A stretch of 64,000 nucleotides of DNA from Apostichopus japonicus (Eukaryota > Echinodermata > Holothuroidea > Aspidochirotida > Stichopodidae): contig NC_092565.1 of assembly GCF_037975245.1 (NCBI RefSeq), positions 15,157,499 through 15,221,498 of the forward strand, in the 5' to 3' direction. Made by a program: the position numbers and the translations under genes. Under the pieces are notes generated by a model. The model did no database searches. It saw only the letters and a list, made by a program, of their open reading frames with translations, and was not told where the DNA came from. Shown piece after piece: positions 21,953 through 48,398 of the stretch (position 1 is its first letter; every line of letters starts with the position of its first letter).

Positions 21953-22576
21953 TCATTGATCCTGTTCGGCTTTAACAGTGGGCTGCTGTTGGACGATCAT
22001 CGGCTCCCCATGGACACTACTGGCTACTGTGGTAGTCAGCGCACTGGACACACCATGGTTCTCCACTAACTGCTGGGGCCCTGGTTGGGGCACTACCATT
22101 TGTGGGCCAGCGTACCGAAATGCAACTGAACCATTGAGTTCTGTCGGGTGGGACGGTTCTGCCCAGTGCTGTGTGGGGGCTAAATACTCTTTGTTCACAC
22201 AATTGCGTAATATCTGAGGTATACGACCAGTGATGGCCCTCCTTATTTCCCCCGCAGCACTTTCGCGTACCTCCGAGCTACTCTGGTCGCTGTACCAGGC
22301 CGAGTGAGGTGTGCATATTAAATTGGGGGCTTCAGCCAATGTGGAATTAGACGGAGAGTATGGTTCATTCTCATGCACGTCCAATGCTGCAGCACGAATA
22401 CGTCCTTCCTTCAAAGCCTGAGCGAGGGCGTTTTCATCTATTAGGCCACCTCGGGCTGTATTAATTAGGAAAGCTCCTTGTCGCATCTGCTTGATGGTAA
22501 ATTCATTGATGAGGTGGTGGTTATGATCGTTGAGTGAACAATGGAGGGTTACGCAATCACTCTGAAACAAAAGGTC
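21953..22576 (-). CDS. CtBP: CtBP terminal coding exon
   Basis: Codes for residues 338-544 ([13 protein letters not shown] through VKAEQDQ and TGA at 21955-21953). It carries R379 (NTARGG), E408 (HENEP), H428 (TPHSAW) and a disordered Pro/Gln/Val-rich tail. Confidence 0.95.
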
Positions 22577-46500: not shown

Positions 46501-48398
46501 TGTATATGCATCAATGTTATGAGATAACCTACCAAGGCAAATTGTTCATGGATGGCATTAATTCATAGACTTTAAATTCCAATAAATCTGAATGAAGGAA
46601 CAGTTTGTCATTAATGGACGATGCAGAAACAAAGCCAGTGAAAATTTATCCTAATATTTTAAAATTTAAAATATGACCGTAATGCATGATACCAGCTCAT
46701 CAAAGCCTACTCCATATCACTGACCAACAAATGCCACCAACCATCATCAAACACATTTCCCTCCTACCCTCTAGTAGTAGTACCCCTGAATCCAACTAAC
46801 GTGTTCCCCGGTACTAGCTAGCCCGATCCTGTACTAGTTACGTACGTTTACCCGTAAGTCCACATGAAAAGCCAGACCTACCCTATCCTGACCATCCCGT
46901 CCCTCTACTCCTACAATAATGCTCACATCATGGAAGGCAAACGGTAGCAATTTTGGAACATTTATCTTTAGGTTATGCACAAGTGAAATTTGTGCATTGA
47001 TGATGTAAATGACATTTTGAATTCTGTTTGTGACAGCTTTATGTGACACCCATTCCAGCTGTCTTTCTACGGTACATTATATGTAATTACGAACAGGTAA
47101 AACGTGCAGTGGGGTGGTACATGTGTCGAGCTCTGTAACAAGAAGAATTATTCTTGGTCCTGAAACAAAATTGAAACAAAACACTAAATAACTTCAAAAC
47201 AAGATAAAAGTATCTGATATCATACTGCAGAAATTAAAATAGGAAGGGGGCCCCAGCGCAAACTTTTCTTGTGCAAATTTTGATATCCATTAGCTAGACG
47301 GCAAGTGCATTTGCACCTGCATGAGTGAAGTGCGGCACTGTATGCAGAAAACTATAATGAACTTGTTGTGAGAATATTAAGAATCTCTCAAAAATAATTT
47401 TAAAGTTATTCTCAAACCATCTGATATAAGGAATTGAAGTTTTTAACCGAGGATTTTAGTAGTTGCAGTCCGAAATGCTTTAAAATACCCCATTTTCTGG
47501 TTGACTAGTTTCAAGACTATAAATAAAAATAATATTGCAAAATGAATTTCAAAATAAGGATAAAAACAGTTGGGGAGACTTTGACAAAGTTGAAACAATG
47601 CACAAAATGAAATTAACTAAGGTGTGACATCTGGTGCACACATAGTAAAAATAATGAATCAATTGGCTTGAAAAATTTTCATCAAAGAAATGGAAAAAGA
47701 AAGGGATAAAATTCTGTTGATTACTCATAAAATTGATAAACTAAGTGCAGCAATGGTTCACAAGAAGCACAATTTGACAGTATGCACTGAATTGCACCAA
47801 AGTACAAAGGCATGCAGAATCATGGCTCTACAGACATATCGGTAAAGGTGAAAGTGCTTCCACAGTCTGTTGGCAGATATAACAGATATATATATATATA
47901 ACAGATAATATGACCTAAAGGTATGAAAAATGTGACATCTATCACTCTATTATGATACTTGATCATATCAAGATGGAATCTAAATCAACAGATTTGGGTG
48001 AAAAATTCAAGTCATTAAATTATACTCAATTTTTTAATTTGTTTTGTCACATGTTTTGTGCCTTGTTGATGTGCTATCACTCTACTAGTTTCCACCTTAT
48101 GAAAACTTCCGGGCAATGACAGGCCAACTATTGACTGCAGCTTAACTTTCACCTTTTCCAAAGTCTGTTACCACAGACAAGTTAAAACATTCCTATTAAG
48201 TAACGGTGTCTTCGGCTATCGTGTCATGACATTGAATACCTGACCAACGATGGTTTCTTCGGTACGACCAATGGCCACCAACCACTTCTCCCTCAAAACA
48301 GCTGGTCTTTTAGGAACACGGTAAAAATGACGTGGGTCTTCGGTTCCTTTGTATCGAGAACGAAACTTACAGTTAGGAAAACCGCATGTTGTAGGCAT
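21953..48398 (-). CDS. CtBP: THAP-domain-containing C-terminal binding protein (CtBP), 7 coding exons
   Basis: Coding exons: 48398-48240, 32281-32074, 30670-30504, 25832-25688, 25332-25126, 24269-24145, 22576-21953; all GT-AG and in phase, 544 aa. CtBP is a nuclear NAD(H)-sensing corepressor related to D-2-hydroxyacid dehydrogenases. Residues 1-90 form a THAP zinc finger: C5, C10 (exon 1), C57 and H60 (exon 2). A basic stretch [18 protein letters not shown] (106-123) leads into the CtBP core ([31 protein letters not shown]). The dinucleotide site is GLGRVG (294-299). Catalytic-type R379, E408 and H428 keep the spacing of human CtBP1 R266/E295/H315. VKAE (538-541) fits a SUMO consensus near the C-terminus. 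Vertebrate CtBPs lack THAP; C. elegans CTBP-1 has one. The upstream in-frame TGA (48410-48408) supports this start. Confidence 0.93.
22577..24144. other. CtBP: CtBP intron 6
   Basis: Intron between exon 6 and the terminal exon. It contains the 122-bp tandem duplication at 23682-23926 and no other recognised feature. Confidence 0.7.
23682..23926. repeat. 122-bp tandem duplication in CtBP intron 6
   Basis: Copies 23682-23803 and 23804-23925 are identical as read (TTAAATATCCATGAATCTCA through CTTCACATCTTTCCT), indicating a recent event. Confidence 0.95.
24145..24269 (-). CDS. CtBP: CtBP coding exon 6
   Basis: Codes for residues 296-337 ([34 protein letters not shown]), completing GxGxxG and the acidic residue that ends the second Rossmann strand. 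The donor is CAG|GTAAAT. Confidence 0.93.
24640..24990. repeat. Minisatellite in CtBP intron 5
   Basis: Roughly 30-bp units of the type CCTTACCTCAAATATCCAAA plus TTATACAGCAA. Several carry minus-strand GAGGTAAGG. Confidence 0.9.
25126..25332 (-). CDS. CtBP: CtBP coding exon 5
   Basis: Codes for residues 227-296 ([30 protein letters not shown]), including the first glycines of the Rossmann motif. The donor is TTAG|GTAAGA. Confidence 0.93.
25688..25832 (-). CDS. CtBP: CtBP coding exon 4
   Basis: Codes for residues 179-227 ([40 protein letters not shown]). The donor is TTGG|GTAAGA. Confidence 0.93.
26240..26372. repeat. Dispersed repeat, member 1
   Basis: Shares with 56250-56368 the ordered blocks TTCATTTAAAT.ACAAACTGGCTCC, CCAAGTGGC.CCT.GG, ACTTTTC.CAGAAA and CTC.AAA.CTTA. 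A diverged, unclassified repeat. Confidence 0.7.
29389..29674 (-). mobile_element. tRNA-derived SINE, copy 2
   Basis: On the minus strand an A-box-like TGGCCGAGTGAATAAAGGC near 29665-29645 and B-box GGTTCGATCCC near 29600-29590 form a tRNA-like head. The body is the same as the copy at 4697-4966. The better preserved of the two. Confidence 0.85.
30504..30670 (-). CDS. CtBP: CtBP coding exon 3
   Basis: Codes for residues 123-178 ([33 protein letters not shown]), the start of the substrate-type domain and peptide-binding cleft. The donor is AAG|GTATTT. Confidence 0.93.
32074..32281 (-). CDS. CtBP: CtBP coding exon 2 (second half of THAP domain and linker)
   Basis: Codes for residues 54-123, beginning [20 protein letters not shown] with the second zinc ligand pair (C57, H60) and ending in basic [16 protein letters not shown]. 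The acceptor TTTTATTCCAG joins exon 1 in phase 0. The donor is GACG|GTGAGT. Confidence 0.92.
32350..33740. repeat. Long minisatellite in CtBP intron 1
   Basis: About 1.4 kb of 37-45-bp units (ACTGATATTCCTGTCCTGGG, TCTGTGACACTAGATCAA), more uniform at 32870-33600 than at the left end. It starts about 70 bp from the exon 2 acceptor. Confidence 0.95.
33741..40079. other. CtBP: CtBP intron 1, middle part
   Basis: Intronic. No exon-like frame with family similarity was seen. A G-rich tract with quadruplex potential lies at 36355-36400. Confidence 0.6.
40080..40830. repeat. Diverged minisatellite in CtBP intron 1
   Basis: Irregular units of about 30-40 bp containing CCATGGCCCAGGATACCTCA and CACCCTCCATATACCC. 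Confidence 0.92.
40890..42420 (-). pseudogene. Decayed DIRS-like retrotransposon fragment
   Basis: Minus-strand frames succeed one another with shifts: 42399-42106, 42211-42008, 42024-41674, 41566-41360 and 41329-40904. The last reads [37 protein letters not shown], which resembles the end of the reverse transcriptase/RNase H region of DIRS-type elements as I recall it. The earlier frames are charged and gag-like ([18 protein letters not shown], basic RKRERKR stretch). The section is more GC-rich than its surroundings. Ends and repeats were not identified; the exact class is uncertain. Confidence 0.5.
42421..48239. other. CtBP: CtBP intron 1, distal part
   Basis: Intronic sequence between the retroelement fragment and coding exon 1. 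No exon, RNA gene or strong repeat recognised. Confidence 0.6.
48240..48398 (-). CDS. CtBP: CtBP coding exon 1 (first half of THAP domain)
   Basis: Codes for residues 1-53 ([35 protein letters not shown]), ending CAG|GTATTC in phase 0. It carries the first zinc ligand pair of the C2CH finger. An in-frame TGA lies 12 nt upstream. A tandem NAGNAG acceptor (TTACAGCAG, 48418-48423) shows that a 5' UTR exon lies further upstream. Confidence 0.9.

Follow-up and report, generated by a model that had tools for sequence, protein, structure and literature searches.

A THAP-CtBP corepressor gene in a sea cucumber, probably inherited from the bilaterian ancestor

Can a CtBP corepressor reach DNA by itself? 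CtBP proteins form dimers and tetramers linked to nicotinamide adenine dinucleotide (NAD), bind PXDLS-type partners, and bring in chromatin modifiers. They are taught as corepressors that are unable to find DNA and must be brought there by partners, so that the Caenorhabditis elegans form, with its THAP domain, looks odd. A gene of the sea cucumber Apostichopus japonicus raises the question again. It lies on the minus strand of a stretch of 64,000 nucleotides (the window; assembly GCF_037975245.1, contig NC_092565.1, positions 15,157,499 to 15,221,498, with window position 1 the first letter). The predicted product probably belongs with C. elegans CTBP-1 among the THAP-CtBP corepressors, and probably descends from a THAP-CtBP protein of the bilaterian ancestor.

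One frame for a THAP finger and a CtBP core

Seven minus-strand exons (48398-21953) join into one open frame: a coding sequence of 1635 nucleotides including the stop, encoding 544 residues with no internal stop. In the rebuilt gene model, all six introns have GT-AG ends. The encoded protein has four parts in order: an N-terminal C2CH THAP finger; a basic linker; a full CtBP core; and a tail. The elements of the gene are as follows.

48399..48420, minus strand: 5' untranslated stretch of 22 nucleotides, read from the sequence, with an in-frame TGA (48410-48408), behind the acceptor-like TTCTTTTCTTACAG
48240..48398, minus strand: probable first coding exon, THAP residues 1-53 (53 codons; C5, C10), phase 0 out, matching PDB 2jm3
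32282..48239, minus strand: intron 1, 15,958 bases, GT-AG
32074..32281, minus strand: exon 2, the remaining THAP residues (C57, H60, GDVPVPDP), the linker, the basic RKAKRPR, and MSVDRIVDG at the splice site; phase 1 out
30504..30670, minus strand: exon 3, start of the CtBP core, with the PXDLS-cleft region
25688..25832, minus strand: exon 4, core
25126..25332, minus strand: exon 5, core; the dinucleotide motif GLGRVG straddles the exon 5/6 junction
24145..24269, minus strand: exon 6, core
21953..22576, minus strand: exon 7, end of the core (triad R379, E408, H428; W431), C-terminal tail, and stop TGA at 21955-21953

The original prediction, made from these letters, had joined exon 1 (48398-48240) to exon 2 (32281-32074) in phase 0 to complete a C2CH finger, and had read that finger as running without a stop into a full CtBP core. 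Both statements hold in the rebuilt gene: the zinc ligands C5, C10, C57, and H60 are in place, and the frame of 544 residues continues into a core that matches CtBP1 (chain 8ari; phmmer against PDB, expectation value E 5.4e-181).

Coding probably begins in exon 48398-48240, and an untranslated exon probably precedes it, because the pyrimidine-rich, acceptor-like TTCTTTTCTTACAG ends in AG 22 nucleotides upstream of the ATG. The in-frame TGA means that this stretch offers no in-frame ATG further up. At the 3' end of exon 2, the frame remains open for about 18 codons beyond the donor (32018-32073, minus strand) before reaching a stop, so a short THAP-only protein might be produced by intron retention. 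The nearest minus-strand AATAAA beyond the stop codon lies at 20792-20797; this hexamer is no commoner than chance in the window (93 occurrences, chance mean 100.64). Promoter and terminator, Rfam, and tRNA scans of the window returned nothing bearing on the THAP-CtBP gene.

The domain matches to THAP and to the CtBP core are far beyond chance. Pfam recognizes the finger at residues 5-62 (E 1.1e-7, above the cut-off), and the core through 2-Hacid_dh (E 3.7e-26) and 2-Hacid_dh_C (E 4.1e-55). From residue 140 onward, the protein shares 253 of 327 residues with CtBP1 (77% identity), and again 253 of 327 with CtBP2, the references being PDB sequences taken as human. The core carries the features by which the CtBP family is recognized in sequence: the NAD motif; the Arg-Glu-His triad; and the PXDLS-cleft residues. 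Nine key positions, whose choice and numbering we take to be correct, were checked against CtBP1, and all nine are the same; they include the triad together with its neighboring tryptophan, and two glycines from the dinucleotide motif. In the tails of non-vertebrate deuterostome CtBPs, a lone W is described beside PELNGxYRY (PMC9907507). Compared by eye, the A. japonicus tail likewise has a W and a PELNGxYRY-like block, differing by an additional T and by further residues ahead of FRY, and by this likeness it is deuterostome-like.

Two introns show features of their own. Intron 6 contains, by eye, a tandem duplication of about 120 bases (about 23680-23930). Within intron 1, the bin 40001-44000 is richer in GC (0.435) than the other 4-kb bins (0.351-0.399), and holds open frames at 40907-41359 and 41677-42105 (minus strand) that have no Pfam match; it is perhaps a mobile element.

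Kinship of the finger

A 122-residue THAP query against PDB found 2jm3 over residues 1-86 (phmmer, E 3.7e-47). This entry represents the THAP domain from C. elegans CtBP (PMC2203978). The two share the same start, and their alignment is gap-free through residue 86, with 68 of 86 residues identical (79%), which bears out the likeness to CTBP-1 that the original prediction had proposed. The comparison covers THAP residues 1-86. Nematode NAD-binding cores are described as about 60% identical to those of invertebrates (PMC9907507). Conservation of the THAP part between worm and sea cucumber thus appears to be no lower than that of the core, the two figures having been measured differently.

Identity extends to key residues: the four zinc ligands, W39, and the basic residues K11, R13, R15, K30, R31, and R36 do not differ between the two animals. 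Both fingers also have PVPDP at the position of the AVPTIF-type box found in human THAP1 and many THAP stretches of the A. japonicus genome. In these alignments PVPDP is a shared oddity, separating the two from other THAP domains.

The finger was then set among other THAP domains, including 40 stretches from the same genome. These were a better-scoring choice among 145 listed THAP matches, themselves drawn from 150 scored of 557 candidates, with some near-copies and some stop-containing stretches omitted. Scored against the A. japonicus finger, the 44 sequences are led by 2jm3 (395), followed by THAP11 (84, partial sequence) and the best of the 40 genome stretches (69). A tree of the THAP part, a comparison proposed along with the original prediction, has 45 rows and joins the A. 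japonicus finger and 2jm3 in a clade (100/99) separate from the 40 stretches. By alignment and tree, the finger is judged orthologous to the THAP domain of C. elegans CTBP-1.

Among the THAPs compared, THAP11 is the nearest other, and might share a common source with the CtBP fingers (its row is partial). THAP11 (2lau) is the only other PDB match of the 122-residue query up to E 0.01 (E 0.0027); a two-sequence THAP profile found only 2jm3 and THAP11 in the PDB up to E 0.1; and in the 45-row tree THAP11 joins the CtBP THAPs at 98/89. In contrast to the worm domain, it has only 26 identities in 71 aligned positions of its partial sequence, and we know of no dehydrogenase fusion of THAP11. Because the THAP11 row is partial, only three human THAPs were included, and the deep forks are weak, this grouping is a lead only.

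The gene appears to stand alone in its genome. A search with residues 1-123 found its own two exons and a third match, at E 9.39. Searching with the whole protein yielded 14 matches up to E 10: its own seven exons, then a match at E 0.0047 and weaker ones. Both searches score best candidates only, and among these there is no second CtBP gene and no close THAP relative. Beyond this genome, the two-sequence THAP alignment met 36 pattern matches in bacterial and archaeal contigs and 16 in viral ones, none of which was confirmed, as expected for an animal gene. Separately, the genome has at least 145 THAP matches, including several near-copies on separate contigs, and some perhaps in transposons. 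Primers published for A. japonicus (PMC4817134), a weak test of the species, agree with this genome in part: AjNOS R matches exactly once, AjNOS F does not occur within the surrounding 3,023 bases at up to one mismatch, and beta-actin F has no exact match.

Proposed descent and loss, and a possible remnant in human CtBP2

The arrangement is already known as a kind: THAP-containing CtBP corepressors are named as a group in the title of Nicholas et al. (2008), and the A. japonicus gene is a further member. The original prediction had left open whether this lineage was described. For echinoderms, a 2026 preprint (PMC13228809) reports in Holothuria glaberrima one THAP gene with a lactate-dehydrogenase (LdhA) domain, which it likens to C. 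elegans CTBP1; its likeness to the A. japonicus gene, THAP plus lactate-dehydrogenase domain, is by description only. So the kind and a sea cucumber example had been named. The preprint also says that the THAP-dehydrogenase is absent from other sea cucumbers, while including A. japonicus in its THAP data set and using the PMC10344927 protein models for comparative genomics. The A. japonicus gene contradicts this claim of absence. That the preprint missed it may be explained by the 16-kb intron and the moderate Pfam score. A literature search on CtBP with THAP, mostly of titles and abstracts and with few subscription papers, found an echinoderm case only in that preprint; in the main text of a 2023 paper on CtBP evolution (PMC9907507), the word THAP occurs once, within the reference list.

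Members of the group differ in their other parts. C. elegans CTBP-1 likewise has an N-terminal THAP on a CtBP protein, whereas nematode tails are described as derived (PMC9907507) and the sea cucumber tail is deuterostome-like. Human CtBP1 and CtBP2, so close in the core, have no THAP, and instead use alternative N-termini: CtBP2 exon 1 with KVKRQR; RIBEYE; and CtBP1-S.

Since a nematode and an echinoderm share this THAP, at the N-terminus of CtBP in both and aligned through residue 86, inheritance from a common ancestor is the simplest account. The original prediction had proposed that direct DNA binding by CtBP was ancestral and was lost in vertebrates. For the fusion itself this is well supported: the sequence comparisons (100/99, apart from the 40 genome stretches) place it in the bilaterian ancestor. 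DNA binding remains a prediction. Given an ancestral fusion, the human proteins without a finger must have lost it; to our knowledge, Drosophila CtBP has lost the finger too.

Did the loss leave a trace? Residues 1-20 of human CtBP2, with the nuclear-localization motif KVKRQR at residues 8-13, come from a short exon 1 that lies over 30 kb upstream (PMC1592084). Sea cucumber exon 2 and CtBP2 exon 1 both stop just before the residues IR. We take the human peptide to be MALVDKHKVKRQRLDRICEG, then IR, its end KVKRQRLDRICEG being partly provisional. With this N-terminus as a PDB query, no match begins before residue 19, and so the letters at 1-7 and 14-20 are provisional. The best local match of the peptide to residues 1-139 of the A. 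japonicus protein has 7 of 15 residues identical and ends exactly at the splice junction. Its score was reached by 80 of 20,000 shuffles, and the end-anchored score, against the last 22 residues of exon 2, by 38 of 20,000. A gapped alignment places both DRIVDG/DRICEG and the basic motifs in register.

Several points count against such a remnant. The gap-free match aligns DRIVDG with DRICEG and leaves the basic motifs offset by two residues. The stump amounts to about 15 residues, many of them basic, in human letters that are partly provisional. The Drosophila N-terminus, in a provisional form, fails the same shuffle test (1605 of 20,000); a phmmer search with the linker and core start aligned the core only and did not report the similarity; and the CtBP2 PDB chain has S for the presumed G before IRPQ, perhaps from another isoform or a tag. 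The odds that human CtBP2 exon 1 is a stump of THAP exon 2 are judged near even. The fuller proposal is that the CtBP of the bilaterian ancestor was a THAP DNA-binding protein, and that vertebrates kept the 3' end of exon 2 as CtBP2 exon 1, with KVKRQR, spliced at the same place. This we hold as a serious candidate that falls a little short of an even chance.

Proposed action, rival accounts, and surroundings

If the sea cucumber protein acts as its human relatives do, its NAD-bound core would form dimers or tetramers, and would take up PXDLS-motif partners together with chromatin modifiers. Each subunit would contribute one THAP finger on a flexible basic linker. Because every subunit bears a finger, several DNA contacts could be made at once, two to four per oligomer. 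Because the complex would hold several contacts, targets might be chosen, or binding stabilized, without a partner factor; they could thus be reached with or without one. The basic linker may also aid nuclear retention, like the CtBP2 motif.

Some results weigh against this picture and against the descent proposed for it. The join of exons 1 and 2 over the 16-kb intron 1, and DNA binding by the sea cucumber finger, are both predictions from sequence. With 32.9 bits against a cut-off of 23.9, the Pfam THAP match is of moderate strength, and it ends at profile position 60 (profile 1-60 of 87). The deep forks of the 45-row tree are weak, and three long rows in it were flagged, including the best-scoring genome THAP (L044). 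Finally, the THAP part was compared between two lineages only, sea cucumber and C. elegans.

These points bear on three other accounts. The locus might be split into two units of transcription, with exons 1 and 2 forming a small THAP gene and, downstream of it, a CtBP gene having its own first exon before 30670, the joined protein being rare or never made. A 16-kb intron 1, the alternative first exons described for CtBP genes (CtBP1-S, RIBEYE), and the THAP-only product allowed by the open codons past the exon 2 donor would suit such a layout. That donor nevertheless joins exon 3 in frame, the end of exon 2 resembles the CtBP2 residues before the same point, and a THAP domain is present in C. 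elegans CTBP-1; two separate units are highly improbable. The nematode and echinoderm fusions might instead have arisen separately or by transfer, or nematode DNA might have entered the assembly. The restriction to two lineages leaves room for this, and many THAP genes are described as repeatedly recruited from transposons (PMC10027918). An independent fusion would however need the same THAP lineage twice, with the start, order, and gap-free alignment to residue 86 in common with 2jm3, and the A. japonicus finger is nearer to the worm's than to any of the 40 sea cucumber stretches tested. As for contamination, the locus lies within a contig of 24,477,998 bases, and the gene also encodes a deuterostome-like tail along with a core that shares 77% identity with CtBP1. 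We regard convergence, transfer, or contamination as improbable, if somewhat less so than two units.

The third account accepts an ancestral fusion and doubts the function: the finger would be a module for protein contact or for general chromatin tethering, without specific DNA recognition. PVPDP in place of the AVPTIF-type box, and a Pfam match that ends at profile position 60, fit this. So does the worm domain: in NMR (nuclear magnetic resonance) work by Liew and colleagues in 2007, it reportedly bound double-stranded DNA in a gel shift, with no defined site. The retention of the zinc ligands, W39, K11, R13, R15, K30, R31, and R36 in both worm and sea cucumber speaks for recognition, and a finger without it seems unlikely, while being the most credible of the three. 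An inherited THAP-CtBP corepressor remains the probable reading.

Elsewhere in the window, two Hsp20/alpha-crystallin frames are divergent and lie about 1 kb apart.

1-558, minus strand: Hsp20/alpha-crystallin frame that runs off the window (Pfam, E 2.5e-7)
1573-2295, plus strand: Hsp20/alpha-crystallin frame (Pfam, E 1.8e-17)

Four pieces of 9492-14255 (minus strand) were tested, with one Pfam match, PseudoU_synth_1, below the cut-off (E 0.0056); the pieces read like a PUS1-type tRNA pseudouridine synthase. A marginal Rfam tRNA match at 10309-10371 (plus strand; 29.5 bits, cut-off 29, E 0.043), with none from ARAGORN, is perhaps a tRNA-derived repeat.

A THAP finger so little changed on a deuterostome CtBP suggests that the partner-dependent form of this corepressor is the derived one. 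Should human CtBP2 exon 1 descend from the THAP exon, this would account for where the CtBP2 nuclear-localization signal came from.

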